Assembly (NCBI GenBank): GCA_945897885.1
Contig: CAMDGU010000016.1
Coordinates: forward strand, 1-56,097
Origin: Chitinophaga pinensis
GTDB lineage: Bacteria > Bacteroidota > Bacteroidia > NS11-12g > UBA9320
Direction of reading: 5' to 3'
DNA length: 56,097 nt
Part shown: positions 8,162-24,602 of the stretch, one piece after another
How the letters are laid out: each line of letters begins with the position of its first letter
Position numbering within the stretch: the stretch's first letter is position 1
Program-made: the position numbers and the translations under genes
The notes under the pieces: model-generated
Databases searched by the model: none
What the model saw: only the letters and a program-made list of their open reading frames with translations
Told to the model about the DNA's origin: nothing

Positions 8162-8267
8162 TGTTACCAAATATCAGGTAGCCTGTTCAGAACTTTACAA
8201 TTACATAACATCGCATTAACAAGACCGTAAAATGGCCCTATTTTCTTTGCAGAATAAAAATTAATAG

Positions 8268-10043
8268 ATGAAAAAATTTACAACAATTAAATTAGCAATC
8301 ACATTAGTGATTATGGGTGTTACCACAGTATTTGCACAAAATCCTTTCAAGTTTTTGAAAGTGGATTATGTGGGAGCCATGGGAACAACGGATTGGACCA
8401 CAGGCTGGACAAACTGGAATCCTGAACAAACCGATTATCCATCAGCTACTGAAACAACAACTTTGAATGCAGCAGCAGTTAGCGGTACTATGAACATCAC
8501 AACAAAGGTGGTTTTAGATTCAACCAAAGTTTATTTATTAACAGGTATCATCTATATTAAAAGTGGTGGGTCACTAATAATTCCTGCAGGAACAATAATT
8601 CGCGCTGAAGGAAATTCAAGTGCAACACCTGCCAATTGGTCTACTATCGTGGTTCAAAGAGGTGGCAAAATAACTTCAAGAGGCACTCAATCCAAGCCTG
8701 TTGTTATTACTTCAAACAAAGCAAAAGGAAGCCGCAAACCAGGTGATTGGGGTGGAATAATCATTTTAGGTAAAGGGATAAATAATGCTCCAGGAGGACA
8801 ATCTAATTGCCCTACTTGTGTTAAAGGTGAAGCTATTATTGAAGGTCCTTTTGGTACTGAGGGAATTTTTGGTGGTAACGATGATGCAGATAATTCAGGT
8901 AGCTTAATTTACACCCGTATTGAATTTCCCGGATTGGTTTTTTCTGCCAATAATGAGATTAATGGTTTGACACTTGGAAGTGTAGGATATGGTACTGTTT
9001 TAAGAAATATTCAGGTTTCATTTTGCAATGATGATTCTTACGAGTGGTTTGGTGGTGCTGTAAACTCAAAATATTTAGTGTCTTTTAAAGGTACTGACGA
9101 TGATTTTGATACCGATTTTGGATACAAAGGAATGAATCAATTCGGAATTGGTTTTAAAGATTCGATCCATTTTGACCCAACTTTTGCCGCACCCAGTGGC
9201 GCTAGTACTTCTGAAGGTTTTGAAAGCGATAATGACGCAACAGGAACTACCTTAAAGCCAAAAACTATGGCAGTTTTCAGTAATTATACTATGGTTGGTC
9301 CTTATGCTGTAGGTGAAACATACTCACAACATTCAGCAACTGTTAAAGCTGCATACCGTCGTGGTGCTAGAATTCGTCGTAACAGCGGTCAATCAATTGT
9401 AAATAGTATTTTTATGGGATACCGTAACGGTTTAATGATCGATGGTTCAGCAACTGAAGCTGTTGCAAATGTAGCCTCAGGTCCTTCAGCTTGTGATACT
9501 CTTGAATTTAAATATAATATTTTATTAGGAATGACAGCGCCATTATCACTTACTGCAAATGGAATTGTAGAAGTAGCTAGCGGAAGAGATACAGCTAAAG
9601 TATTTAAATGGTTAAAAGGTGGTTCAAATAGAATTAATCCTGTAGCCTGGTCACCAGGTACATTGTTAACTAACCCTAATAGCTATACTGCCCCAAATTT
9701 TTTACCAGTAGCTTCTTCACCTGCCTTATCTGGAGCTGATTTTACAAATTGTAAATTCACTGGAATAACAGAATTATCAGTAAAAAATCGAATCAATAAT
9801 GGTTCTATTGTAGTTTATCCAAATCCAAGCAATGGAGTAGCTACTATAGAAATGAATTTAATAAACAATGCTTCTTTAGCTATTTCAGTGGTAACATTGG
9901 ATGGTAAGGTGATAAGAAATTTAAATGACTCTTACCCAGCCGGTAAATCATCAGTTACATTTGATGGCTTAGGCCAGGGAGTGTATATTGTAAAAGTGGC
10001 TCAAGATGCTTCATTTAACACGTTTAAACTTATTGTAAAGTAA
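8268..10043 (+). CDS. T9SS-exported beta-helix surface protein
   Basis: 591 residues. Signal peptide 1-24 (ends TTVFAQ). The central part (about 90-400) has the repeating pattern of a right-handed beta-helix: GGSLIIPAGTIIRAEG, WSTIVVQRGGKI, PGDWGGIIILGKG and LRNIQVSFCNDDSYEWFGG. Acidic stretches such as GTDDDFDTDFGYKG suggest calcium binding. The last 80 residues are a type A T9SS sorting domain (VYPNPSNGVATIEMN, then GVYIVKVAQ and a final KLIVK), so it is secreted or anchored on the cell surface. Two cysteines in CPTC may form a disulfide. The gene follows the TonB receptor on the same strand and ends at a strong terminator. Similar pairs occur across Bacteroidota, but I cannot name the substrate. 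Confidence 0.8.
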   Translation: MKKFTTIKLAITLVIMGVTTVFAQNPFKFLKVDYVGAMGTTDWTTGWTNWNPEQTDYPSATETTTLNAAAVSGTMNITTKVVLDSTKVYLLTGIIYIKSGGSLIIPAGTIIRAEGNSSATPANWSTIVVQRGGKITSRGTQSKPVVITSNKAKGSRKPGDWGGIIILGKGINNAPGGQSNCPTCVKGEAIIEGPFGTEGIFGGNDDADNSGSLIYTRIEFPGLVFSANNEINGLTLGSVGYGTVLRNIQVSFCNDDSYEWFGGAVNSKYLVSFKGTDDDFDTDFGYKGMNQFGIGFKDSIHFDPTFAAPSGASTSEGFESDNDATGTTLKPKTMAVFSNYTMVGPYAVGETYSQHSATVKAAYRRGARIRRNSGQSIVNSIFMGYRNGLMIDGSATEAVANVASGPSACDTLEFKYNILLGMTAPLSLTANGIVEVASGRDTAKVFKWLKGGSNRINPVAWSPGTLLTNPNSYTAPNFLPVASSPALSGADFTNCKFTGITELSVKNRINNGSIVVYPNPSNGVATIEMNLINNASLAISVVTLDGKVIRNLNDSYPAGKSSVTFDGLGQGVYIVKVAQDASFNTFKLIVK

Positions 10044-10295: not shown

Positions 10296-11126
10296 ATGAT
10301 GAAACGAAAAGTAAAAGTAGCCGTAGTTTCGGATGTTCACTTGGGAACTTACGGTTGTCATGCGAAGGAATTAAAACATTATTTAGAATCTATTTCTCCC
10401 GAAACGCTTATTCTAAACGGCGATATTATCGACATTTGGCAATTTAGCAAAAGCTATTGGCCCAAAAGCCACATGAAAGTTATAAGGCAAATTTTGAAGC
10501 TTTCGGAAAATGGTACAACAGTTTACTACATACCTGGTAATCATGATGAAATGTTGCGAAAATTTGAAGGTTTACAATTGGGAAATATTACTGTTTGTAA
10601 TAAAGTTATTTTAGAACTGAACGGTAAAAAAGCTTGGTTTTTTCATGGTGACGTGTTTGATGTTTGCATGCAGCACAGTAAATGGCTGGCCAAATTGGGA
10701 GCAAAAGGTTACGATCTTTTGATATTGATAAACCGTTTTGTAAATTTTATACTTACAAAAATGGGTCGTCGTAAAATATCCTTATCAAAAAGGGTAAAGA
10801 ATAGTGTAAAAAGTGCCATAAAATTTATTAATGATTTTGAATTGACCTGCGCCAATATTGCAATTGAAAATAACTATGATTATGTGGTTTGTGGCCATAT
10901 TCACCAACCCGAAATACGAGACATTGAAACCAAGGAAGGCAAAGTTACCTACCTAAATTCGGGTGATTGGATTGAGAACTTAACAGCCCTAGAATACAAT
11001 AAAGGCAAATGGGAGTTAATTAAAATTGGTGAAATTTCAGAGGAAAATGAGGAAGAACATCATACCGATAAAAACAACAAGCAGCTTTATAACGAATTAT
11101 TAAAGGAATTTAACATTGCTTCATAG
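10296..11126 (+). CDS. LpxH-like UDP-2,3-diacylglucosamine diphosphatase family phosphoesterase
   Basis: 276 residues with all calcineurin-like metallophosphatase motifs in order: VVSDVHLGTYG (residues 9-19), LILNGDIIDIW (38-48), YIPGNHDE, FHGDVFD and CGHIHQPE near residue 203. The first lysine pair allows start at either ATG of MMKRK. LpxH removes UMP from UDP-diacylglucosamine in lipid A synthesis at the inner face of the inner membrane. This YGCHAKEL-type homologue is common in Bacteroidota and may instead act on another nucleotide-linked or phosphorylated lipid. It is followed 57 bases later by a glycosyltransferase and then a GH1 glycosidase on the same strand, which hints at glycolipid metabolism. 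The substrate assignment is uncertain; the enzyme class is firm. Confidence 0.8.
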   Translation: MMKRKVKVAVVSDVHLGTYGCHAKELKHYLESISPETLILNGDIIDIWQFSKSYWPKSHMKVIRQILKLSENGTTVYYIPGNHDEMLRKFEGLQLGNITVCNKVILELNGKKAWFFHGDVFDVCMQHSKWLAKLGAKGYDLLILINRFVNFILTKMGRRKISLSKRVKNSVKSAIKFINDFELTCANIAIENNYDYVVCGHIHQPEIRDIETKEGKVTYLNSGDWIENLTALEYNKGKWELIKIGEISEENEEEHHTDKNNKQLYNELLKEFNIAS

Positions 11127-11183
11127 GGGTTTTAACTTTTCCAAATTTTCAAACTTTAGAAAAGTTATTTAAAAAGTAGTAAA

Positions 11184-12284
11184 ATGAAAATATTATATGC
11201 CATACAAGGAACCGGAAACGGCCACATTACCCGAAGTGTCAGCATTATTAATGAACTTAAAAAACGGGCAGATGTAGATGTCTTGGTTAGTGGAATTCAT
11301 AGTGAATTAAAATTACCTATCGATGTTAATTATAATTTAAAAGGTCTTGGTTTTGTGTTTGGTCAAAATGGGGGAATTGATTATTACCAGACTTTCAAAC
11401 AAAACAAACTTTCAACCCTATTTAAAGAAATAAAACAATTACCCGTTAAGAATTACAATTTTGTAGTAAGTGATTTTGAACCTGTTTCGGTTTGGGCTGC
11501 TTCTAAAGTTGGAATACCAACGATTGGTATAAGTAATCAAGTTTCTGTATTGCATCCAAAAATAAAAAAACCATGGCCGCCAGTTTCTGTTAGTCGGGTG
11601 TTTATGGAAAATTATGCCCAATGCCAATACAATATTGGGTTTCATTTTGAAGCTGTAGATGATCATATTATAACTCCGGTAATTCGCCATGAAATAAGAC
11701 TTGGAAAAAATACGGATGATGGCCACGGATTGGTATATTTGCCCTTTTATAGCGATGAAATTATTTTTAAAGCTTTGCAGAAAATCACTAATATCGAGTG
11801 GGTTGTTTTTTCAAAACATTCAAAAAAAGCTTACAAAGAAGGTAATGTTCAATTTGAGCCGATAAATGGACAGTTGTTTAATGAAAAACTTTTGAGTTGT
11901 CATATTGTATTAACTGCTGCGGGATTTGGAACCACTTCCGAAGCCTTGCACCTGGGCAAAAAAATGATTGTGATACCAATGAAAGGTCAATACGAGCAAA
12001 AATTTAATGCTTACACTCTACAAAAATTTGGGGTTAAAGTTCTTAAATCATTGGAATCAAAGGATGCAACGACTGTAATCACTAGTGTTTTAAATAGCTC
12101 GGCATGTTTTAAAATGAATTACCCTGATAATGCCAAATTAATTTCAGATAAGATTATTGAATTGTACAATGGTCCAATATTAGAAAGTCTTTGCAACTCT
12201 GCAAATAGTAAGAATCAACCCTTGGACTATTATTTTAACCCGCCTAAAATAAACCGTGATAATCCAGGAACACTTTCCTACTGA
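11184..12284 (+). CDS. GT-B glycosyltransferase (MGT/GT28-like)
   Basis: 366 residues. The N-terminal IQGTGNGHITRSVSI is the glycine-rich acceptor-domain loop of MurG/MGT-type GT-B enzymes. The C-terminal TAAGFGTTSEALHLGK and IPMKGQYEQKFNA stretches (about residues 252-282) are the nucleotide-sugar binding region. There is no signal peptide and no membrane segment, so it should work in the cytoplasm or at the inner-membrane face. It sits between an LpxH-like phosphoesterase and a GH1 enzyme; its 3' end overlaps the GH1 gene by 29 bases. A glycolipid or lipid-linked acceptor is plausible, but the donor and acceptor cannot be read from the sequence. Confidence 0.8.
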   Translation: MKILYAIQGTGNGHITRSVSIINELKKRADVDVLVSGIHSELKLPIDVNYNLKGLGFVFGQNGGIDYYQTFKQNKLSTLFKEIKQLPVKNYNFVVSDFEPVSVWAASKVGIPTIGISNQVSVLHPKIKKPWPPVSVSRVFMENYAQCQYNIGFHFEAVDDHIITPVIRHEIRLGKNTDDGHGLVYLPFYSDEIIFKALQKITNIEWVVFSKHSKKAYKEGNVQFEPINGQLFNEKLLSCHIVLTAAGFGTTSEALHLGKKMIVIPMKGQYEQKFNAYTLQKFGVKVLKSLESKDATTVITSVLNSSACFKMNYPDNAKLISDKIIELYNGPILESLCNSANSKNQPLDYYFNPPKINRDNPGTLSY

Positions 12285-13617
12285 TTTTATATGGGGAACG
12301 GCAACATCTGCTGCGCAAACCGAGGGAATGCCGGAAGCTGATGGCTCAGGTCTTTCAATATGGGATGATTTTTCACAGCGAAAAGGAAAAATTAAAAACA
12401 ACCATACCAATCAATTAGGTTGTAATTTTTATACCCATTACAATGAGGATATTGAAATATTAAAGAAACTTGAAATACCTAATTTTCGGTTTTCAATAGC
12501 TTGGCCTAGGGTTTATCCTATGGGTTATGGACATGTAAATCATCCCGGTTTGGATTTTTACAAACGACTTATTGATAAATGCCTTGAAAATAATATTAGG
12601 CCTTGGGTTACTCTTTACCATTGGGATTTACCTTCGGCTTTGGAAAGCAAAGGAGGATGGACCAACCGAAATATTGTAAGTTGGTTTAAAGATTATGTTT
12701 TGACAATTGCCATGCATCTGGGCGATAGAGTAAAAGACTGGATAGTGCTCAATGAGCCCATGGCTTTTACAGGAGCAGGGTATTTCCTGGGCTTGCATGC
12801 CCCGGGCCGAATGGGAATGGGGAATTTTATACCTGCAATGCACCACGCTGCTTTGTGTCAGGCCGAGGGAGCTAGAATATTACGATCAGAAGTTAGAAAT
12901 GCCAATATTGGAACCTCGTTTTCCATGTCGCAGGTGGAGCCTTTAACGCAAAATCCTGCGGATATTATAGCATCCGAAAAAATACATGCCTTGCTAAATC
13001 GTTTGTTTCTAGAACCCGCTTTGGGGTATGGGTATCCGGTAAAAGAACTTCCTTTTTTACAAAAGGTAGAACGCTACATGCGCCAAGGCGATGAAAAGCG
13101 AATGCAGTTTGATTTTGATTTTATAGGGGTTCAAAATTATACCCGAGAAATTGTAGCCGCCAATTGGTACACCCCATATTTGCAGGCCCGCATTATTCCG
13201 GCCAAATTGCGCAATGTGGCCCTTACGGCTATGGATTGGGAAATTCACCCACCGGCTTTGCATCATGTTTTAAAATTTGCTGCCGGCTATGATAACGTAA
13301 AAAGCATTATCGTTTCCGAAAATGGTGCTGCCTTTCATGAACCACAGCCACACAATGGAGAATCGGATAACAACCGAATTGAATTTTTGAAGCAAAATGT
13401 ATATCAGTTACAAAAAGCATTATCAGAAACGGACAAGATTAAGGGTTATTTTGTTTGGAGCTTACTGGATAACTTTGAATGGGCCGAGGGTTTTGACCCG
13501 CGTTTTGGCCTGGTTCATGTAGATTTTGAAACCCAAAAAAGAACCATCAAACATAGTGGCTATTGGTATCGTAAATTTATTATGGAACAAATGTCAAAGG
13601 CAGAAATCACTATTTAA
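12256..13617 (+). CDS. Glycoside hydrolase family 1 (beta-glucosidase type)
   Basis: 453 residues, the normal length for GH1, which are (beta/alpha)8-barrel retaining enzymes that cleave beta-linked glucosides, galactosides or phospho-sugars. N-terminal FIWGTATSAAQTEG is the family signature. The acid/base Glu is in VLNEPMAF near residue 163 and the nucleophile Glu is in IIVSENGAAF near residue 355; LLDNFEWAEGF completes the active site. No signal peptide, so it is cytoplasmic. The frame starts at GTG 12256, inside the end of the glycosyltransferase gene; the next in-frame ATG comes after the signature and is too late. Its link with a glycosyltransferase suggests turnover or trimming of the same glycoside, as inference. 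Confidence 0.87.
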   Translation: MIIQEHFPTDFIWGTATSAAQTEGMPEADGSGLSIWDDFSQRKGKIKNNHTNQLGCNFYTHYNEDIEILKKLEIPNFRFSIAWPRVYPMGYGHVNHPGLDFYKRLIDKCLENNIRPWVTLYHWDLPSALESKGGWTNRNIVSWFKDYVLTIAMHLGDRVKDWIVLNEPMAFTGAGYFLGLHAPGRMGMGNFIPAMHHAALCQAEGARILRSEVRNANIGTSFSMSQVEPLTQNPADIIASEKIHALLNRLFLEPALGYGYPVKELPFLQKVERYMRQGDEKRMQFDFDFIGVQNYTREIVAANWYTPYLQARIIPAKLRNVALTAMDWEIHPPALHHVLKFAAGYDNVKSIIVSENGAAFHEPQPHNGESDNNRIEFLKQNVYQLQKALSETDKIKGYFVWSLLDNFEWAEGFDPRFGLVHVDFETQKRTIKHSGYWYRKFIMEQMSKAEITI

Positions 13618-15022: not shown

Positions 15023-16000
15023 CTAATGAATTACCTTAAACGCTTCCGGTGCTATAAATTGACATCTGTATTGGTTTAACGGTAATGAGGCCGGGCCATT
15101 TAATACCAAACCGTCTGACGAAAATTTAGATCCATGGCAGGAACAGTAAAAAAGGTTATCACTTTTTAAAAAGTCAATTCCACAACCAGCATGTGTGCAT
15201 TGGCCTGAAAAGGCTTTCATTTCATTGGTTGAAATTCTTTTTAACCAAATATCCCCTTTCGATATGCTAATTTTTTGAAAACCGCCAAGCAGTTTTAGTT
15301 CAGGGTAAGCTTCGGTACTAATTTTTAAAACATTAAATGTGGGAATATTTTCTTTTGCAACAATAACCCCGTCACCGGTTATCTTTATCGAAAGTAAATC
15401 ATCTGCCTCAAATTTACCTGGCATACTTAATAGGTAAAATCCATCCTCTGACGCCACATTTCTAATTTCGAGCAAATCTCCATTTTTATTTCTTAATTCA
15501 ATTAAGACAGTTTTTATATTTTCAGTTTTAAAAAATAGCCCCAGCTTACCTTCAGCAATGGCTTCCTGAGGTTCAATCTTTAAAATTTCAATAGTTTTGA
15601 GTGGTGGGTGTTTATATTGAGTTTTAATATTTTCTTTGATTGATTCTAACCCATCTCCCGAAAGTTTTATTGAAAAAAGGCTGTCTTTTTCTAATACCAT
15701 TGGCAATTGAAATTTATAAAATCCAATGGTAGAATCTATTATTTTGGTTTCTAAAGCATCTACCTTATTATTGATTAATTCTACCTTTACATTTTTAATA
15801 TTCTTTGCTTTAAAATTTACGGTAAGGCTTTCTCCTGCTATGGCTTCATAAGGTATAATGCTCAAAATTTCAAGAGTTTTAAATGGAGGTGCTATTGGGT
15901 TTTCGGGCTCCGGTTTTATTTCAGACTCATGTTTACAAGCTGAAACCAGAAAAGAAATGATTCCGGAAAATTGAAGATATAAATAATCCCTTCGTGTCAA
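15023..16000 (-). CDS. Rieske [2Fe-2S] lipoprotein with two Ig-like repeats
   Basis: 325 residues. A lipoprotein signal ends in FLVSACKHE (Cys-22), then two tandem beta-rich repeats of about 80-90 residues, each starting with the same phrase (PPFKTLEILSIIPYEAIA and PPLKTIEILKIEPQEAIA) and ending with GDG. The C-terminal domain (about 225-325) is a Rieske fold with both cluster motifs intact: CTHAGC near residue 266 and CSCHGS near 287. It should hold a high-potential 2Fe-2S cluster at the membrane surface, on the periplasmic or outer face. Its start overlaps the stop of the cytochrome c gene by four bases (ATGA), and the di-heme peroxidase precedes that, so the three form an electron-transfer operon. 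This is not the bc1-complex Rieske protein, which lacks such repeats. Confidence 0.88.
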   Translation of the reverse strand: MTRRDYLYLQFSGIISFLVSACKHESEIKPEPENPIAPPFKTLEILSIIPYEAIAGESLTVNFKAKNIKNVKVELINNKVDALETKIIDSTIGFYKFQLPMVLEKDSLFSIKLSGDGLESIKENIKTQYKHPPLKTIEILKIEPQEAIAEGKLGLFFKTENIKTVLIELRNKNGDLLEIRNVASEDGFYLLSMPGKFEADDLLSIKITGDGVIVAKENIPTFNVLKISTEAYPELKLLGGFQKISISKGDIWLKRISTNEMKAFSGQCTHAGCGIDFLKSDNLFYCSCHGSKFSSDGLVLNGPASLPLNQYRCQFIAPEAFKVIH

Positions 16001-16395
16001 TGTTCTTTATTTTTAATTGGAAGTCTAGCCAAATCTTTTCTACTATTTTTTTTCTTATAGGCTAAAAATGTTTTTATAACTGCAAGTTCTTCTTCCGTTA
16101 CATTTCGTTCGGTTAATTTCTCCTCATGCATAGGGTTCAATATTCTGATATCATATCCGGCTAATTCTTCCGAACTAAAATCAGGATAAATTTCTCTTTT
16201 CCTTACTTTTGCATTATGGCATTTGGCACAATTAATGTCAAACAAAATTTTTCCTTTATCAAATAGCTTTACATATTCAGAAAGAACGGGTTCCTGCATA
16301 GCTTCAGGAAATTCATAAGTAACCTTTTTTTGGCTTCCACATCCGGCTATAATAATAAATGTGGTAACAGTAATAATTGCAATTATTTTTTTCAT
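15997..16395 (-). CDS. Monoheme cytochrome c lipoprotein
   Basis: 132 residues. Lipoprotein signal with IIAGCGSQ (Cys near residue 19), then one heme c site, CAKCH, near residue 55, and NPMHEE, which can supply the distal Met ligand near residue 93. It is a small class I-type cytochrome c tethered to a membrane. It lies two bases after the peroxidase gene stop and overlaps the Rieske gene by four bases, so the three are made together. It is the natural electron carrier between the peroxidase and the Rieske lipoprotein, an inference from gene order. Confidence 0.87.
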   Translation of the reverse strand: MKKIIAIITVTTFIIIAGCGSQKKVTYEFPEAMQEPVLSEYVKLFDKGKILFDINCAKCHNAKVRKREIYPDFSSEELAGYDIRILNPMHEEKLTERNVTEEELAVIKTFLAYKKKNSRKDLARLPIKNKEH

Positions 16396-16397
16396 TT

Positions 16398-18323
16398 TTA
16401 ATATGCTCCTCCAATTTTTCTTTTGTTTAATGTTTTATTCTTTGAAGTGGGCAGCTTTGTTGGCGGCATTTCAAAAATTATATCTTCGTTAAGCGATTTC
16501 ATAAATTCAACCAATTGGTATTTTTCGGTTTTTGTTAAATGCAAGGAATCCGCTGAGAGGGTTTGATTGTCTACTTTCAATCCTCTGCCAGCTCCGCCTC
16601 CTCCATCATAAAAATCTACCACCTCATTTAAATTGGCAAAAACGCCATTGTGCATGTATGGCTTGGTGTATTGGGCATTGCGAAGCGAACCTGTTCTAAA
16701 AGCATTGGCAGTTTCATCGGCTGGGTTTATTCCAAACCGTCCATTGTCATTGCTTAATTTGCTGTAAGCGGTATCGGCTGGCACACCCAAAACTTCAAAT
16801 TCAGAACCCACATACGGCGGTTTTACTCCATTAAATTGTGGTACAAAATGGCAAGTAGCGCATTGGGCTTTACTCATAAAAACATTAAAACCCTGCCTTA
16901 CAGTTTCATCCACAGTTCCTGTTTTATTCATAGCATTATCAAATGGGGCATGGTAATTACTGAACTTACTGTAGTAAAAACTAATGGCCGACACAACGTG
17001 TTCTAATGTGATTTCCTTTTCTTGTGGCGTATATTTTAATAATTTGGTAAATGCTTTTTTATAATCCCCACAGCTCATTATTTTCTTCAAAGTTTCTTTT
17101 TCATCGCTTGCCATTTCCAGCGGATTGGTGATTACATCTTTTCCTTGATGTTGCAGGGTTATGTGCTTTCCATCAAGCATCAATAAGTGGTTGAAGCTAG
17201 CATTAATAAGTGATGGAGTGTTTCTTGTTAAAAAATTTTTATGGTCAAATTGCATCGAAGTTTTTGAAACCGTATCGGTAAAGTACTCGGTTGTTTTATG
17301 GCAAGAAGCGCAGCTACGCAAATTATTGGATGATAAAATAGGGTCGTAAAAAAGTAGCTTTCCTACTTTGTTTATTTCATTCAATACTTCATCATCATTT
17401 ACCCTTAAGAAAATCCCTTTTGAATTTTGGCCAAAATAAAGCGACTTATCAAAAATGCTCATGCTTTCATTATTTAAGGAATAATCTACCAAACTACGAG
17501 TCGATACTTTATATTTTTTTATATGCATTTGGTTAAATGCAAACAGCGGATTTATGAAATCTTTGATAAAGGTGAAATGATCAAACTTGGAATTATAAGC
17601 CTGTTGTGTTTTTACAAAATCTATAGCTTTGGCATGCAAATGAATGTAATCTGTGGACAATGGTGTTTCCGAAAAACTTTCGTTAAACGAATTGTAAGTG
17701 GAATTTACATCCTCCATCATTAGTTGTAATTCAGGAATTACACGTTCAGGATATGGGCATTCAAAACCAGTAGTATAAATGGCAGCAAGATTTAATAAAT
17801 AAAGACGGTTACACAAAAAAAAGTGATGGTAGGTTTTTAAATTATCGGTAATGGAATCGGCAAAATACGATTGGGTATTTTCAACCGATTCTTCTATCAA
17901 ACCTAATAAATGTTGCTTGTCAATGTTTTCTTCCTCCAAATAGAGTTGGGCAAGGGTGAACCCGGCACCAATTCGTTTATATGGCTTTTCCCATTTTTCA
18001 AATACTTCAGTTTCCCATTCCACTGGTAATGGACCATTTATTTTTTTGTAAGCCAAGGGGTTTAAATACCGTAACCATATATCCAAACCTTTCATTTGAT
18101 TCCGGGTTTGGTTTATTTTATTTTTTATTATTTCAATAGCATCTGTCGATTTTAAATCACTGGCCTCAATAAGCTTTACCAATTCTGTTTGCTGCGAATT
18201 AAAATTGGTTAATTTTTCGGTATAGTCAGCAATATAAGTATTGGAACGATCCTTAAAATTTAAAGACAAAATAGCTATGAGGCTAAATGTCAAAATTATT
18301 AAAGGCTTTATTTTTAGTCTCAT
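16398..18323 (-). CDS. Di-heme cytochrome c peroxidase / MauG family protein
   Basis: 641 residues, longer than the usual 330-400 of bacterial cytochrome c peroxidases. The N-terminus (MRLKIKPLIILTFSLIAILS) is a signal peptide or anchor. Residues about 25-300 are an all-helical extension seen in Bacteroidota members. The catalytic half carries two heme c motifs, CASCHK near residue 337 and CATCHF near 487, with FYDGGGGAGRG and LTKTEKYQLVEFMKSL near the end, typical of the family. Members either reduce H2O2 to water with electrons from a cytochrome c or, as MauG does, oxidise a partner protein. It is the first gene of a three-gene operon with a cytochrome c and a Rieske lipoprotein. Which of the two activities applies is open. 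Confidence 0.87.
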   Translation of the reverse strand: MRLKIKPLIILTFSLIAILSLNFKDRSNTYIADYTEKLTNFNSQQTELVKLIEASDLKSTDAIEIIKNKINQTRNQMKGLDIWLRYLNPLAYKKINGPLPVEWETEVFEKWEKPYKRIGAGFTLAQLYLEEENIDKQHLLGLIEESVENTQSYFADSITDNLKTYHHFFLCNRLYLLNLAAIYTTGFECPYPERVIPELQLMMEDVNSTYNSFNESFSETPLSTDYIHLHAKAIDFVKTQQAYNSKFDHFTFIKDFINPLFAFNQMHIKKYKVSTRSLVDYSLNNESMSIFDKSLYFGQNSKGIFLRVNDDEVLNEINKVGKLLFYDPILSSNNLRSCASCHKTTEYFTDTVSKTSMQFDHKNFLTRNTPSLINASFNHLLMLDGKHITLQHQGKDVITNPLEMASDEKETLKKIMSCGDYKKAFTKLLKYTPQEKEITLEHVVSAISFYYSKFSNYHAPFDNAMNKTGTVDETVRQGFNVFMSKAQCATCHFVPQFNGVKPPYVGSEFEVLGVPADTAYSKLSNDNGRFGINPADETANAFRTGSLRNAQYTKPYMHNGVFANLNEVVDFYDGGGGAGRGLKVDNQTLSADSLHLTKTEKYQLVEFMKSLNEDIIFEMPPTKLPTSKNKTLNKRKIGGAY

Positions 18324-18449: not shown

Positions 18450-18486
18450 GAAAGAGGTTTGGTCACTTATTGACCAAACCTCTTTC
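18450..18486. terminator. Strong hairpin between the PhoX-like gene and the peroxidase operon
   Basis: GAAAGAGGTTTGGTCA (18450-18465), loop CTTAT, and its perfect complement 18471-18486. It lies 33 bases after the stop of the giant minus-strand gene. A T-rich tail follows on the plus strand; on the minus strand, the side where transcription arrives, the T tract is missing. It probably still terminates or protects the 3' end of the minus-strand mRNA. Confidence 0.65.
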
Positions 18487-18518: not shown

Positions 18519-21500
18519 TTAGTTTTTAAGCAATCGGGTAACATAAATGGTATTCGAGGTTGTTATCTTAACAAAGTAAAGTCCGGTACTTAAGCCCGAA
18601 GTATTCAATGCTAATGAAGTTTCGCCTGATGCGGTAATTCTGCTTATGGCAGGAGTAACTTCTTTGCCCAACATGTCAATAACTTTTATTTCAAGGTTTT
18701 CTTCATTTTCCAAATTTATGGATAGCGTTGTATTTCCGCTAGTTGGGTTGGGGTATAGTTTTACTCTTGAGTTTTCTGATAGAACAGGTTTTACACCCAA
18801 ATTTTGTATGCCAATTCCTTGCAATACAAAATTGTATTCTGGTGTTTCAATATCGTTTGTCTCAATAATCATGGATGTTACTTTTCCTTCTATTGTTTTT
18901 GGGGTAAACTGAACATTGATAGTTTGAGAACCATTTACTGCAATAGTGATTGGGAAAGAAGGAGGAGTAACTAATCCAAACTCACTTGCATCATAGCCTT
19001 TAAAGCGAATTGATTTTATGGTCAATACACCAGGACCTGCATTTTTAATTTCGAATGGAAGCGCTTTTGAAGTGTTTTTCATTACGTTTCCAAAGTCGGT
19101 ATTATCTGCAAAACTTGGTGATTCATCGTTATTTGCAATGGTTACATTATTTCCGGTAACACTCACATTAGGCACAGATGCTTTAGTATCAGGATTGAAC
19201 AAAGTCAGCAATTGTCCGCCTTCTACCAATGCACCAGGTTGTGCATAATGAGCTTGGTCAACATAAATAAAATTACCTACCCCTAAAATATCTTGCATAT
19301 CAATTATTCCAGATGATTCCTCATCTTGTGTTAAATAACTTGAACCACCTTGTACAAAACGATCCGCATCATGGGTAGCTATTAATTTAACAGCATCATT
19401 AGCGATCGTATACTGCCAGATTTTAGCTAAGTAACTTTGATTTCCCGGATCTTCTTGAATCATGATATGACCATAATTGTCTATTACCATATTGTCCATC
19501 ATTTTTGGACCTTCAGTTCCGTCTAAAACTGCTGTAATGGTTCCACCATTTTCTGGATTTAAAATATCATTGAAACGCAATCTCCACAAACGGCTTGGTG
19601 CTGTAAATGAATTTGTAGTTACAAAGTAAAAATCTTTTGGATTATTTGGATCCCAAGCGCCATCTTCTGGACGTAAAAATTCAGTTACACCTGCCGCATC
19701 ACTCGCTGTTTCAAGAGCTGCTCCAGTTGAATTTTGACGTTGTCCTAAATCAGCCAAAGTAAATGCAGTTTCAGCGGCAGGTACACTTGCGCTTACCTCT
19801 AAAGTTAAACCAGTTACTTTTACTCCATATAATTTACCATTAGTTAATCCAGCTCTTTCTATTTCGGTACCTGTATTGGTTTTTGTTCCAATATAAAAAT
19901 ATACTTGACCTGGTGTGGCATCATCCATACCTCCTACAATTGTTTTATTACTTGCAAAAGGACTAGCTACAGAATTTTCCCAGCTAAATTTACCTAAATA
20001 AGGCAATTCATAAGTCGTTCCTGCATTAGCTCCAGTAGAAATATGTCCAAAGGCTCTTCCTTCAGCACCACTTTCTTCACCATTCATAAATATGCGTTCT
20101 TGCGTTCCCATACCTGTAGCATTATTATAGAATGCAGATACTGATGGAAGATCTCCTGCACAAAAACGATTGAAGGCAGATGCAATATTTGGATTGGCTG
20201 CGTTGTACATGGTGTAGCCTGCTCCATTCCATACATTCACATTCTTAATTAAATCAGAACCATTGGTAATCATATTATTTGATTTATTAATTACCCATTT
20301 AGAAACGAAAGCTCCTTTTTGACCATGCGCTCTAACAACACCTACAGAGTTGCTCATCTCATGATTCATTAATAAAGTAAATGTCCCATTGCCATTATCA
20401 AAAGCACCTAATCCATCACCTAAGCCACTCATTTTATAAGTACCAATTGAATCACCTACAGTAAGCAAAGCGTTTGTTTTAACTCCGGCAGATGCAGCTT
20501 GTAAATAGGGTGATTGAGAGCTTTGAGGACCAGCACCTAAAAATGAATTTTTAGTATCAGGATTAAACAAAGTCAATAACTGACCGCCTTCAACCAATGC
20601 GCCTGGTTGAGGATAATGCGCTTGATCCACATATATAAAATTACCAGCTCCTAATATTCCTTCCATATCGATAATTCCAGATGACTCCTCATCTTGTGTT
20701 AAATAATTAGCTCCACCTTGGACAAAACGATCCGCATCATGGGTAGCAATTGGTTTCACTGCATCTGTAGCGATAGTATATTGCCAAATTCTGGCTAAGT
20801 AACTTTGGTTTCCTGGATCTTCTTGAATCATGATGTGACCATAATTGTCGATTACCATATTGTCCATCATTTTTGGACCTTCAGTGCCATCTAATACTGC
20901 TGTAATGGTTCCACCATTTTCAGGATTTGAAATGTCGTTGAAACGCAATCTCCATAAACGGCTTGGTGCTGTAAATGAATTGGTAGTTACAAAGTAAAAA
21001 TCTCTTGGATTCATTGGATCCCAAGCGCCATCTTCTGGACGTAAAAATTCAGTTACACCTGCTGCATCACTCGCTGTTTCAAGAGTTGCTCCAGTTGAAT
21101 TTTGGCGTTGACCTAAATCAGCCAAAGTAAATGCCGTTCCTGCTGCTGGAAAACTTGTGCTTACTTCTAAAGTTAAGCCTGTAACTTTTACTCCATATAA
21201 TTTACCATTAGTTAATCCAGCTCTTTCTATTTCGGTACCTGTATTGGTTTTTGTTCCAATATAAAAATATACTTGTCCTGGTGTGGCATCATCCATACCA
21301 CCAACAATCGTTTTGTTACTTGCAAAAGGACTAGCTACAGAATTTTCCCAGCTAAATTTACCTAAATAAGGCAATTCATAAGTCGTTCCTGCATTAGCTC
21401 CAGTAGAAATATGACCAAAGGCTCTACCTTCAGCACCACTTTCTTCACCATTCATATATATGCGCTCTTGCGTTCCTAAACCAGTTGCTGCATTATAAAA

Positions 21501-24500
21501 TGCAGAAACCAGTGGAAGATCAGCCGCACAAAAACGATTGAATGATGTTGTTGAGTCATAGTATGAGCTGGTTGATGGTCTCCAAAGTTTTACTTTTGAG
21601 ATTAAATCACTTCCACTCACAATATTCAAATCAGATTTATTAATTACCCATTTAGATACAAATGCGCCTTTTGAACCATGAGTTCGGGTTACTCCTACCG
21701 TATTTCCCATTTCGTGATTCATCAATAAAGTAAATGTTCCATTCCCATTATCAAAAGCACCTAAGCCATCACCTAATCCACTCATTTTATAAGTTCCTAC
21801 TGAGTCACCTACAGTAAGCAAAGCGTTTGTTTTAACTCCAGCAGATGCAGGAAGTAAATAAGGTGATTGAGAGCTTTGAGGACCCGCACCTAAAAATGAA
21901 TTTTTAGTATCAGGATTAAACATGGCCAAGATTTGACCATCTTCCACTAATTCACCACCAAGTGCTTTGTGCGCTTGATCCACATATATAAACATACCAG
22001 CACCTAAAATATCCTGCATATCTATAATACCTGAGGCTTCTTCATCAATTGTTAAAAAATTCGTTGCCCCAGCAGTAAATCTGCCAGCGTCATGTGTTGC
22101 AATCATCTTTAGCTGATCTGTTGCAACCTCATATTGCCACATTTTACCTAAATGTGCTTGTCCTCCAACATCTTCTTGTAAAATAATATGACCAAATTTA
22201 TCAAAACCGATATTATCAATCATTTTTGGACCTTCAGTACCATCTAATACAGCGGTAATTGTTCCACCAGCTTCTACATTGGCAATATCAGTAAAGCTTA
22301 AACGCCATAATCTACTTGGAGCAGTAAATGAATTCGTAGTAGCAAAGTAAAAATCTTTTGGATTGCGAGGATCCCATGCTCCGTCTTCAGGACGTAAGAA
22401 ATTGGTAACTCCTGCTGTATTACTTGCAGTGTTTAATGTTGCTCCTGTTATATTTTGAACTGTACCTAAATCAGCTAATGTAAATGATGTGCCAGCAGCA
22501 GGAATACCTGCGCCTTCTGTAGTTAAGCCTGTAACTTTTACCCCATATAATTTACCGCCTGATAAACCAGCTTTTTCAATTTCTGTTCCAGTATTGGTTT
22601 TTGTTCCCACATAAAAATATACTTGTCCTGGTGTGGCATCATCCATACCCGCTACTACTGTTTTATTTCCTGATGCTGGGCTAGCTACAGAGTTCTCCCA
22701 ACTAAACTTACCTAAATAAGGTAATTCGTAGGTTGTACCAGCATTAATACCTGTAGAAATATGTGCAAAAGCTCTTCCCTCTGCACCTGACTCTTCACCA
22801 TTCATAAAAATACGCTCTTGAGTTCCTAAACCCGTAGTTGCATTATAAAATGCAGATACTGGAGGTAAATCAGCTGAACAAAAACGGTTAAAAGAAGTTG
22901 TACTATCAAAATATGAACTTGTAGAAGGTCTCCATAATTTTACCTTTTTAATAAGATCGGATCCACTAACAACAGCTAAATCTGATTTGTTAATTGTCCA
23001 TTTTGATACAAAAGCACCTTTTGAACCATGTGCTCTATTAATACCTACTGCGTTATTAAGCTCATGTGCTACCAATAAAGTAAAAGTACCATTATTGTTA
23101 TCATAAGCACCCACTCCGTCAGGTATACCAACCATTTTATAACCACCCACTGAATCACCTACACTAATAATTGAAGTATGATTACCTCCAGGGATTGTAG
23201 ATTCTAAGTAAGGTGTTTTTGTGCTACTTGGTCCAGTATTACCAAGTGATAGTGAAGTAGTAAAAGCTTTTAGGTTAGCAATTTTGTTGCTTCCTTTTAA
23301 TCCATATGTTACAACATGGCTCGTGATTGATGTGGCAACCGGTATTCCGTTTGCTAGAGGGCATGTTTGGCCAAAGTCATTGTCGTTACCAATAGCAATG
23401 GTACTATCATTTATAATAGCTAATCCCTCAGCTTTATCTAAAGTGGGATCCCAACCATTGGCTAGTAAATCCATAAACAATTTCTTTTTTACCGGTTTAA
23501 TACCGTTGCCTGCTAATCCGGCTGAATCAACCAAGGCTTCCAAGGTTTTTCCACCATACAACCCCGAGTTTACTGCAGTTGCACCATTAATATTTATTAG
23601 ATATACACTTCGTTTGTCACCTGTTCCTCTAAGCGCTGCTTCCAATACTAAAAAGGTACTGTCATTTATAGCAGCCATATCCCCAATTTTCCAGTCTCTC
23701 AATCTGATTTGATTTGAACCAGAAGCACCGATTATTCCATCATTAAGGTAGGCATACATTTTTGTAGCATTGGTAGTTGGGTCAATTTCTATGATTCTAT
23801 GAACCCTCGTTCCTTCACCAACTGCGGTAGTTGGATATAAAATAGGACTTTGAATCATGGCATAAACTTTTCCGTTTGGGGTAATGGATAGGCCTTCGAA
23901 ACCACGGTTGTTTTTACGGTATTTAAATACCGAATCAATATAGATATCTTGTGGTTGAGCTCCAGCTTGATTAGCATAAGGAGTAAAACGATTTAATACC
24001 ACACCGTTTGAATTAAGTTTCCAAATGGTTGGACCACCTTCTTCACATATCCAAAAATTTCCTTGCTTATCAACAGCTATACCTTCTGGGTCGGTTCCCC
24101 AAATGTCTTTGGCTACGGTTTTTAAATTAAATCTTGAACAGGTCAAAACGGTATCGGTAGAAGGAACCTCAGCTGCGGTGCTTCCAAAACCGGTTGGGTT
24201 TAATAGCCCAGTTGCTCCTGTTCCGTCAGGGCGTTTTACGGTTATAATTTTTAAAATTTCTACAGAACTGCCCTTCAATCGTATTCTGTAAATTTTAGGA
24301 GAAAATGTTGGGAAGGCATACATTTTATCATAAGTTGGACGGCAGGTTGATAAATTAGCACTGCCACAATCCACGTTTACGCCTCTGTCACTTAATACCC
24401 AAAATTCGGTACCATTTGTGTTTGGAATAGGGTACATTCCGGAAAAACCACCTTCACGGAAACCTACTCCCATAAAGGTTCCGATAGTTGGCGAATTGGT

Positions 24501-24602
24501 GTTTTGATAATCTTTTAAGACACCGATTTGTGCCTTGCTAAACGTGCTTGCAAAGAGCAAGATACTTAGACTAACTAAAATTGATTTGAAATGGTTTTTC
24601 AT
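18519..24602 (-). CDS. Giant T9SS-secreted protein: phytase-esterase-like domain plus three PhoX-like domains
   Basis: 2027 residues. Signal peptide 1-24. Residues about 25-450 match the esterase-like activity of phytase family (beta-propeller-like; GFRVGFREGGFS-type start, EGIAVDKQGNFWICEEGG near 175). Three tandem domains of 450-456 residues follow, starting near 451, 899 and 1350; each has the DUF839/PhoX features NGEESGAEGRAF, GGMDDATPGQVYFY or its variant, RPEDGAWDP, and a conserved FNRFC cysteine (near 574, 1026 and 1480). PhoX enzymes are calcium- and iron-dependent alkaline phosphatases. Then an ASH/choice-of-anchor D domain (about 1806-1940) and a type A T9SS sorting domain (LYPNPTSGNTTLSIN to the end) place it outside the cell. 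Whether all three domains are active is unknown. It is a single-gene unit. Confidence 0.85.
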   Translation of the reverse strand: MKNHFKSILVSLSILLFASTFSKAQIGVLKDYQNTNSPTIGTFMGVGFREGGFSGMYPIPNTNGTEFWVLSDRGVNVDCGSANLSTCRPTYDKMYAFPTFSPKIYRIRLKGSSVEILKIITVKRPDGTGATGLLNPTGFGSTAAEVPSTDTVLTCSRFNLKTVAKDIWGTDPEGIAVDKQGNFWICEEGGPTIWKLNSNGVVLNRFTPYANQAGAQPQDIYIDSVFKYRKNNRGFEGLSITPNGKVYAMIQSPILYPTTAVGEGTRVHRIIEIDPTTNATKMYAYLNDGIIGASGSNQIRLRDWKIGDMAAINDSTFLVLEAALRGTGDKRSVYLININGATAVNSGLYGGKTLEALVDSAGLAGNGIKPVKKKLFMDLLANGWDPTLDKAEGLAIINDSTIAIGNDNDFGQTCPLANGIPVATSITSHVVTYGLKGSNKIANLKAFTTSLSLGNTGPSSTKTPYLESTIPGGNHTSIISVGDSVGGYKMVGIPDGVGAYDNNNGTFTLLVAHELNNAVGINRAHGSKGAFVSKWTINKSDLAVVSGSDLIKKVKLWRPSTSSYFDSTTSFNRFCSADLPPVSAFYNATTGLGTQERIFMNGEESGAEGRAFAHISTGINAGTTYELPYLGKFSWENSVASPASGNKTVVAGMDDATPGQVYFYVGTKTNTGTEIEKAGLSGGKLYGVKVTGLTTEGAGIPAAGTSFTLADLGTVQNITGATLNTASNTAGVTNFLRPEDGAWDPRNPKDFYFATTNSFTAPSRLWRLSFTDIANVEAGGTITAVLDGTEGPKMIDNIGFDKFGHIILQEDVGGQAHLGKMWQYEVATDQLKMIATHDAGRFTAGATNFLTIDEEASGIIDMQDILGAGMFIYVDQAHKALGGELVEDGQILAMFNPDTKNSFLGAGPQSSQSPYLLPASAGVKTNALLTVGDSVGTYKMSGLGDGLGAFDNGNGTFTLLMNHEMGNTVGVTRTHGSKGAFVSKWVINKSDLNIVSGSDLISKVKLWRPSTSSYYDSTTSFNRFCAADLPLVSAFYNAATGLGTQERIYMNGEESGAEGRAFGHISTGANAGTTYELPYLGKFSWENSVASPFASNKTIVGGMDDATPGQVYFYIGTKTNTGTEIERAGLTNGKLYGVKVTGLTLEVSTSFPAAGTAFTLADLGQRQNSTGATLETASDAAGVTEFLRPEDGAWDPMNPRDFYFVTTNSFTAPSRLWRLRFNDISNPENGGTITAVLDGTEGPKMMDNMVIDNYGHIMIQEDPGNQSYLARIWQYTIATDAVKPIATHDADRFVQGGANYLTQDEESSGIIDMEGILGAGNFIYVDQAHYPQPGALVEGGQLLTLFNPDTKNSFLGAGPQSSQSPYLQAASAGVKTNALLTVGDSIGTYKMSGLGDGLGAFDNGNGTFTLLMNHEMSNSVGVVRAHGQKGAFVSKWVINKSNNMITNGSDLIKNVNVWNGAGYTMYNAANPNIASAFNRFCAGDLPSVSAFYNNATGMGTQERIFMNGEESGAEGRAFGHISTGANAGTTYELPYLGKFSWENSVASPFASNKTIVGGMDDATPGQVYFYIGTKTNTGTEIERAGLTNGKLYGVKVTGLTLEVSASVPAAETAFTLADLGQRQNSTGAALETASDAAGVTEFLRPEDGAWDPNNPKDFYFVTTNSFTAPSRLWRLRFNDILNPENGGTITAVLDGTEGPKMMDNMVIDNYGHIMIQEDPGNQSYLAKIWQYTIANDAVKLIATHDADRFVQGGSSYLTQDEESSGIIDMQDILGVGNFIYVDQAHYAQPGALVEGGQLLTLFNPDTKASVPNVSVTGNNVTIANNDESPSFADNTDFGNVMKNTSKALPFEIKNAGPGVLTIKSIRFKGYDASEFGLVTPPSFPITIAVNGSQTINVQFTPKTIEGKVTSMIIETNDIETPEYNFVLQGIGIQNLGVKPVLSENSRVKLYPNPTSGNTTLSINLENEENLEIKVIDMLGKEVTPAISRITASGETSLALNTSGLSTGLYFVKITTSNTIYVTRLLKN

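Follow-up and report, generated by a model that had tools for sequence, protein, structure and literature searches.

PhoX-type phosphatases liberate phosphate bound in organic matter, both in soil and in the sea, an activity believed to be limited by their demand for iron. PhoX is reported to hold two Fe3+ ions and PhoD one, purple acid phosphatases (PAPs) contain Fe3+, and both PhoX and PhoD use the twin-arginine translocation (Tat) pathway, export that has been speculated to serve the insertion of iron in the cytoplasm beforehand (PMC4223295). Many PhoX-type enzymes of Bacteroidota pass through the general secretory (Sec) pathway and the type IX secretion system (T9SS), and one must then ask how their ferric centre forms outside. 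Here we describe a locus on a 56,097-nucleotide stretch of Chitinophaga pinensis DNA (GenBank assembly GCA_945897885.1, contig CAMDGU010000016.1, positions 1 to 56,097; the whole stretch is termed the window), in which the gene of a T9SS-secreted PhoX-like phosphatase is followed by genes for a MauG-type di-heme peroxidase, a cytochrome c lipoprotein and a Rieske lipoprotein.

Part of this arrangement is already known from Flavobacterium. The phoX gene of Flavobacterium johnsoniae was reported to be inactive when placed alone in Pseudomonas putida; its operon includes a MauG-like gene, which neighbours phoX in all Flavobacterium genomes, and a MauG-made, protein-derived cofactor was suggested for the phosphatase (PMC8812569). 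Phosphate depletion is reported to induce both genes, fjoh_2478 and fjoh_2477, with transcriptome changes of 12.50 and 9.58 (PMC8115612). In the literature that we searched, no paper linked PhoX with imelysin, or phosphate starvation with cytochrome c peroxidase, and nothing further on di-heme enzymes in phosphate starvation was found among the matches listed. What appears to be new, as judged from that search, is the phylum-wide breadth of the association, the fusion of an imelysin-type domain to the MauG-type domain, the exchange of phosphatase families and the split between Sec and Tat. With confidence that is about evenly balanced, we propose that the module is a phosphate-starvation unit, in which a secreted iron-dependent phosphatase is accompanied by a periplasmic di-heme enzyme dedicated to making it ready for activity.

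The di-heme enzyme and its phosphatase neighbour

The initial annotation had described an envelope redox operon of three genes: a di-heme peroxidase of 641 aa (16398–18323), a single-heme cytochrome c lipoprotein of 132 aa (15997–16395) and a Rieske lipoprotein of 325 aa (15023–16000), all on the minus strand. On re-reading, the three open reading frames and their coordinates proved exact, as did the gap of 2 bases between the first two (16396–16397) and the overlap of 4 bases between the last two (15997–16000). The tight coupling therefore stands; the trio as a stand-alone unit does not, since an upstream PhoX-like gene on the same strand (18519–24602, minus strand) had been left out. In the direction of transcription this 2027-aa gene comes first, followed by the peroxidase, cytochrome c and Rieske genes, and the same order recurs in one congener (G004) with proteins 86, 93 and 95% identical. 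Judged from its conservation across relatives, the upstream PhoX-like protein is the core partner of the peroxidase, and the three redox genes form the end of an operon for phosphate scavenging.

The 2027-aa protein is composed of a Phytase-like domain, three PhoX-like repeats, an ASH/HYDIN immunoglobulin domain and a type A T9SS sorting tail, with Pfam matches to PF13449 (2.4e-49), PF05787 (3.6e-31 over three stretches; 109.3 bits compared to a cut-off of 24) and PF18962 (9.5e-15). Its N-terminus (MKNHFKSILVSLSILLFASTFSKAQ) lacks the twin arginine that marks PhoX for Tat export. Using PhoX residue numbers transferred by alignment of a relative (L051) to structure 3zwu, equivalents of C179, E194, E273, D292, R385 and E387, which we take to be ligands of the iron/calcium centre of PhoX, were found in all three window repeats. 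When solved structures were searched by phmmer with the first window repeat, no PhoX match was returned. The gene context of 13 full-length relatives in related genomes was examined, and Pfam analysis of eight large neighbours (L043, L044, L045, L047, L048, L049, L050 and L051) identified PhoX in seven; the sorting tail was the sole match in L045, and the PhoX part of L047 and L049 was fused to a choice-of-anchor I domain.

The 641-aa enzyme matched CCP_MauG (PF03150) at 8e-36, with 124.4 bits compared to a gathering score of 25.6. An AlphaFold2 model was built with 78 relatives (predicted local distance difference test score of 93.5) and compared to known structures by VIA-align. The di-heme part, at about residues 313–616, aligned to MauG, MbnH-type and cytochrome c peroxidase (CcP) structures with Z of about 29–32, reaching 31.5 for the MbnH-type 6e1c and about 29.6–29.7 for MauG (3l4m and others). 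Among NCBIfam models, TIGR04039 (MbnH) scored best at 147.8 bits, below its cut-off of 362.85, and TIGR03791 (MauG) scored 124.8 bits, below 443.85; models for MbnP had no match in 16 scanned window proteins, a subset of the window reading frames.

Residues C338, C341, H342, C488, C491, H492, E403, Y556, H558 and Y572 were invariant in 79 of 79 aligned sequences. Both CxxCH motifs and the active-site Glu403 of the CCP_MauG superfamily are therefore present throughout, together with Tyr572, and the earlier assignment to the MauG/CCP family was borne out. In classical bacterial cytochrome c peroxidases, a Met is the axial ligand of the second heme. Tyr572 aligns to this Met, which sets the enzyme apart from the classical type and suggests MauG-type chemistry; the roles of Glu403 and Tyr572 were assigned by analogy to MauG E113 and Y294, which are named in the titles of structure entries. 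The position of the inter-heme Trp of CcPs is occupied by Trp in 14 of the 79 sequences and by Leu in the window enzyme. A C-terminal tail, R..GG.Y (window residues 634–641), is kept in many relatives, the window included, and is missing from Flavobacterium-type enzymes in the alignment.

The N-terminal part of the model, at about residues 27–281, has an imelysin fold, as it aligned to the imelysin-like 3pf0 (Z 19.6, root mean square deviation 3.2, 235 residues aligned), EfeO (Z 19.0) and EfeM (Z 18.7), with 6–13% identity to imelysin-type structures. Helical bundles reach a Z of about 13 by arrangement alone, a level which the imelysin and EfeO comparisons exceed. EfeO and EfeM are components of iron uptake. 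By hhalign, the domain matched Bacteroidota PF09375 proteins at E 1.8e-5 with a probability of 78%; the Pfam model PF09375 itself had no match in residues 1–318 at E up to 1, nor in the window genome (G000). The imelysin GxHxxE region maps by hhalign to G121..Q126. The 79 sequences hold the GxxxxE variant of this motif, with G121 in 77, Glu/Asp in 69 and His in none (Gln in 58, Thr in 17), and the motif His is present in just 5 of the 22 Bacteroidota PF09375 sequences compared. A first guess that the imelysin-type His is an iron ligand was dropped, since this His is replaced in 79 of 79.

Phosphatase linkage and export route

Linkage was determined in 80 named loci, the best 80 of 587 when ranked by similarity to the window peroxidase and hence not an even sample. 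A secreted phosphatase was found within three genes of the peroxidase in 68 of these: PhoX in 33, Flavobacterium-type PhoX (PHOX2) in 22, PF04185 proteins in 7, PAP-like proteins in 5 and PhoD in 1. For the PF04185-like, PAP-like, PhoD and Flavobacterium-type PhoX classes, profiles were made from proteins encoded at the 80 loci themselves, some of these proteins having been named by Pfam beforehand. Pfam analysis of representatives identified PF09423 in L100, PF00149 with PF16656 in L108, L121, L128, L131 and L134, PF04185 in L114 and L137, and PF05787 in L125; the latter was one of three Flavobacterium-type PhoX proteins scanned, of which L119 and L132 had no match.

In a sample drawn evenly from the phylum, with the window as one of its 30 full-length enzyme loci, a phosphatase was located within 1.5 kb in 27 loci, or 28 when a wider view (L203) was included. 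The enzymes of G070 and G188, from one genus, had no phosphatase nearby, and a larger stretch around these two showed none. Short CCP/MauG homologues of the same relatives, which are devoid of the N-terminal domain, displayed no phosphatase link (0/17). The initial annotation had offered peroxide detoxification or, like MauG, oxidation of a protein or small substrate at the surface; a conserved candidate substrate gene beside the peroxidase in 68 of 80 loci fits oxidation of a protein and disfavours simple detoxification. Several genomes also encode, close to PhoX, a leucine-rich-repeat-like protein (by eye) of about 300 aa (L203:6802-7728, L205:5858-6784, L206:8620-9519 and L207:6865-7785).

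The export route of PhoX was next compared to the position of full-length enzyme genes in 395 genomes, in which 55 PhoX genes were assigned as Sec or Tat from their N-termini. By this approach, 24 of 28 Sec-type PhoX genes were near a full-length enzyme gene; by contrast, 0 of 27 Tat-type genes were (Fisher p 9.4e-12, a value that ignores kinship). One genome, G145, holds both kinds: a Tat-type PhoX without the enzyme and a Sec-type lipoprotein PhoX beside it. In a PhoX tree, 26 of the 27 Tat proteins clustered, and the other (L142) was placed apart, inside the Sec set (support 0.82). When Sec- and Tat-type PhoX proteins were aligned, with the set limited to proteins of 430–760 aa, no Trp, Tyr or His was conserved in the former and missing from the latter.

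For this comparison, Tat and Sec were assigned from twin Arg/Lys motifs, with L143 and L146 assigned as RK by eye. Weak PF05787 matches (G176, G188, G194, G332 and G448), second matches per genome and the window were excluded from the 28 and 27. G363, whose match spans nearly the full length, was placed with the Sec type on the basis of its N-terminus, and G267 was counted as linked at about 6 kb. A short MauG-like gene without the N-terminal domain, about 2.4 kb from PhoX in the Tat genome G219, was uncounted. In a Tat-PhoX genome, the gene for a 309-aa lipoprotein precedes that of a short MauG-like enzyme (L215:10542-12505), a pair which we presume to resemble MbnP-MbnH.

Accessory redox genes and surroundings

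The cytochrome c gene (15997–16395) encodes one CxxCH motif, and its PF00034 score of 20.3 bits is just below the cut-off of 21.3. Homologues were located directly 3' of the peroxidase gene in 20 of the 80 named loci, all in the closest clade, and the lipoprotein is probably the electron partner of the di-heme enzyme. No conserved Met was detected by eye in this clade, and a His located after the heme motif is a possible sixth ligand.

The Rieske gene (15023–16000) has TTG as its sole start and encodes a twin-arginine stretch (TRRDYL) followed by a lipobox-like VSAC; the protein consists of this signal, two repeats and a C-terminal Rieske domain, and the window genome encodes TatC. The PF00355 match (38.3 bits compared to a cut-off of 20.3, 1.3e-9) is the sole Rieske match in that genome, and scores against NCBIfam equivalogs for bc1/b6f Rieske proteins were below the cut-offs (47.3 and 250 bits; 35.5 and 97.4 bits). 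No Rieske gene was found within about 9 kb of the peroxidase in any of the 80 named loci, and a full-length homologue was detected just in the window genome and G004 among 58 relatives. Because of these two counts, the Rieske gene is, as far as gene distribution tells, a local, lineage-specific add-on, and a Rieske-centred operon was rejected. Thus, conserved co-occurrence of the three families, as the initial annotation had envisaged, holds in part for cytochrome c, which is clade-specific, and fails for Rieske, which is missing from the 80 named loci, the kind of outcome that the initial annotation had itself named as a refutation.

A separate operon with the same order was observed, in which a DHOR (PF06537) di-heme lipoprotein is followed by a Rieske or Rieske-like lipoprotein and a protein of about 350–420 aa, for which the scanned examples had no Pfam match. 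The DHOR-Rieske order occurs in 6 of the 7 DHOR genomes of the 58 relatives (L246-L251, from G052, G020, G008, G013, G010 and G003; for example L057:4379-7264).

Between the phosphatase and peroxidase genes (18450–18486) lies a near-perfect hairpin of 16 bp with a T-rich tail, with a folding energy of −27 kcal/mol (z −9.05; 0 of 200 shuffles equally stable). The hairpin may be terminator- or attenuator-like, and as an attenuator it could set the ratio of enzyme to phosphatase. A promoter scan at the locus yielded matches no more frequent than in shuffled sequence.

Convergent to this operon, on the plus strand, are genes for a PlcP-like metallophosphoesterase (PF12850/PF00149), a glycosyltransferase (PF13528/PF04101) and a GH1 glycosidase (PF00232) at 10296–13617. 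In F. johnsoniae, PlcP and a glycosyltransferase are reported among the lipid remodelling genes that phosphate depletion induces (PMC8115612). The genes at 10296–13617 share Pfam families with these, which fits a phosphate-starvation neighbourhood, and they are probably lipid remodelling genes of this kind. Based on N-terminal sequences, similar genes adjoin the peroxidase in G015, G022, G023/G025, G038 and G039, and BLAST detected them in 5 of the 80 named loci. Beside these genes (5348–10043), a gene for a SusC-like TonB receptor is followed by one for a T9SS-secreted 591-aa protein; the two could belong to a phosphate-utilisation locus.

Proposed function and comparison with known systems

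Gene linkage, domain fusion, heme residues, retained PhoX metal-site residues and restriction to Sec-type PhoX support the proposed unit; we infer action of the enzyme on the phosphatase, oxidation or loading of iron as its chemistry, and every electron-transfer step. We lean slightly towards the wider claim that the di-heme enzyme matures the phosphatase. Held more tentatively, and short of an even chance, is the specific version, in which the EfeO/imelysin and MauG-type polypeptide is a periplasmic iron-installing ferroxidase that builds Fe(III) centres in phosphatases exported unfolded. The fusion of these domains fits such an iron-centre maturase, as do its neighbours, which are Sec- and not Tat-type PhoX and include PAP- and PhoD-type enzymes. 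Sec would carry the phosphatase across the inner membrane unfolded, which would preclude assembly of the ferric centre in the cytoplasm. The imelysin/EfeO-like domain would then dock the phosphatase or handle iron, and the MauG-type di-heme centre would draw electrons from Fe(II) or the nascent site and pass them to H2O2, or to O2 aided by cytochrome c, leaving the site in the Fe(III) form ahead of export by T9SS. The cytochrome c lipoprotein, and in this genus only the Rieske lipoprotein, would serve as accessory electron carriers.

Several observations weigh against this proposal. No recognised phosphatase was found within three genes in 12 of the 80 peroxidase loci (L064, L065, L069, L071, L072, L074, L080, L099, L101, L107, L113 and L127), with the contig ending near the peroxidase gene in L071 and L099. 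Four Sec-type PhoX genes are without the enzyme nearby (G191, G090, G363 and G269, the last on a short contig), and the Sec/Tat contrast is phylogenetically confounded, such that it may represent perhaps two independent contrasts. Of the linked phosphatases, 7 of 68 are PF04185 proteins, a plant relative of which is reported to be metal-independent (PMC9837106). The His of GxHxxE is not conserved, so iron binding at the imelysin motif site is not supported; together with the PF04185 partners, this loss bears on the iron version in particular. Any contact between enzyme and phosphatase would be hypothetical. The hairpin, finally, could mean that the phosphatase and peroxidase transcripts are separate; since it is kept in G004 (by eye, L042 at about 12783–12820), where some 30 bases remain between it and the start codon, a separate transcript and read-through at a lower level are equally plausible.

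The enzyme might instead act as MauG or MbnH do and form a protein-derived group (an oxidised Trp/Tyr or a cross-link) in the phosphatase. The MauG-like Glu403 and Tyr572, the MbnH-type structure among the closest and the cofactor proposed for Flavobacterium PhoX (PMC8812569) are all consistent with this account. We consider it unlikely, as the Sec-type PhoX partners have no conserved Trp, Tyr or His that the Tat type lacks, the partners come from unrelated families, and the inter-heme position is Trp in a minority of sequences and Leu in the window. Joint acquisition of iron and phosphate, with the enzyme active in EfeUOB-like iron uptake and expressed alongside phosphatases whose target is organic phosphate bound to iron, would account for the imelysin/EfeO fold of the N-terminal domain and agrees with a report in which imelysins almost invariably accompany EfeB-like peroxidases and are at times fused to them (PMC3143127). 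This is quite doubtful: no permease was seen among labelled or Pfam-scanned neighbours, nor an EfeB peroxidase among those scanned, where no search aimed at EfeU/EfeB was made, the motif His is lost, and the linkage tracks the export route of PhoX, which uptake does not need.

Generic detoxification of periplasmic peroxide by an enzyme that lies in the phosphate regulon by chance is very improbable. Membership of CCP_MauG with heme motifs and Glu403 intact speaks for it, yet Tyr replaces the classical axial Met, none of the 17 short relatives is linked to a phosphatase, and the swapped phosphatase families are left unexplained. Tight coupling kept in G004, and the finding that unrelated DHOR di-heme lipoproteins precede Rieske(-like) genes, which indicates that such pairing can arise, are in favour of a redox module fed by or feeding the Rieske protein with some surface substrate; this is hardly credible given the distribution of the Rieske gene in the 80 loci and 58 relatives.

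If the iron-installing reading is correct, a maturase replaces the cytoplasmic assembly and Tat export of other PhoX and PhoD enzymes, and one extracytoplasmic metal-centre maturase would serve several unrelated phosphatase families. A maturase could also explain the failure of Flavobacterium PhoX in a foreign host. The conserved neighbour, which joins an iron-uptake-type domain to a protein-oxidising heme domain, makes the question of the ferric centre directly testable.

Like the window, the Flavobacterium operon has an exported PhoX-like phosphatase gene (fjoh_2478) adjoining a MauG-like peroxidase gene (fjoh_2477), and Flavobacterium loci fall in class PHOX2, with 22 of the 80 loci. The window partner differs in being a triple PhoX of 2027 aa with a Phytase-like domain and a T9SS tail, and the accessible part of the published Flavobacterium account does not mention the imelysin-fold domain, other phosphatase families, the Sec/Tat contrast, cytochrome c or Rieske. 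MauG shares with the window enzyme the di-heme fold (Z about 29.6), the Glu and axial-type Tyr positions and a likely protein substrate; the window enzyme departs from it in its N-terminal imelysin-fold domain, its TIGR03791 score below the cut-off and its phosphatase partner. MbnH (6e1c; TIGR04039) is similar in structure (Z 31.5) and gave the best NCBIfam score, but this score is below the cut-off, and in the window a phosphatase takes the place of an MbnP-like partner.

Similarly to imelysin, EfeO and EfeM and to imelysin-EfeB fusions, an imelysin fold is joined here to a di-heme peroxidase, with the GxxxxE motif of the IPPA family. A 2011 imelysin paper (PMC3143127) describes members with GxxxxE as well as fusions to peroxidases resembling EfeB; unlike those fusions, the window enzyme carries CCP_MauG (PF03150) and not the EfeB/DUF1111 type, and unlike imelysin/EfeO systems it has a phosphatase neighbour in place of iron-uptake genes. 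Tat-exported PhoX (3zwu) and PhoD (2YEQ) belong to the same phosphatase families, and the PhoX metal-site residues are retained at this locus; those enzymes are exported folded, whereas the partners described here have Sec-type signals and a neighbouring peroxidase.

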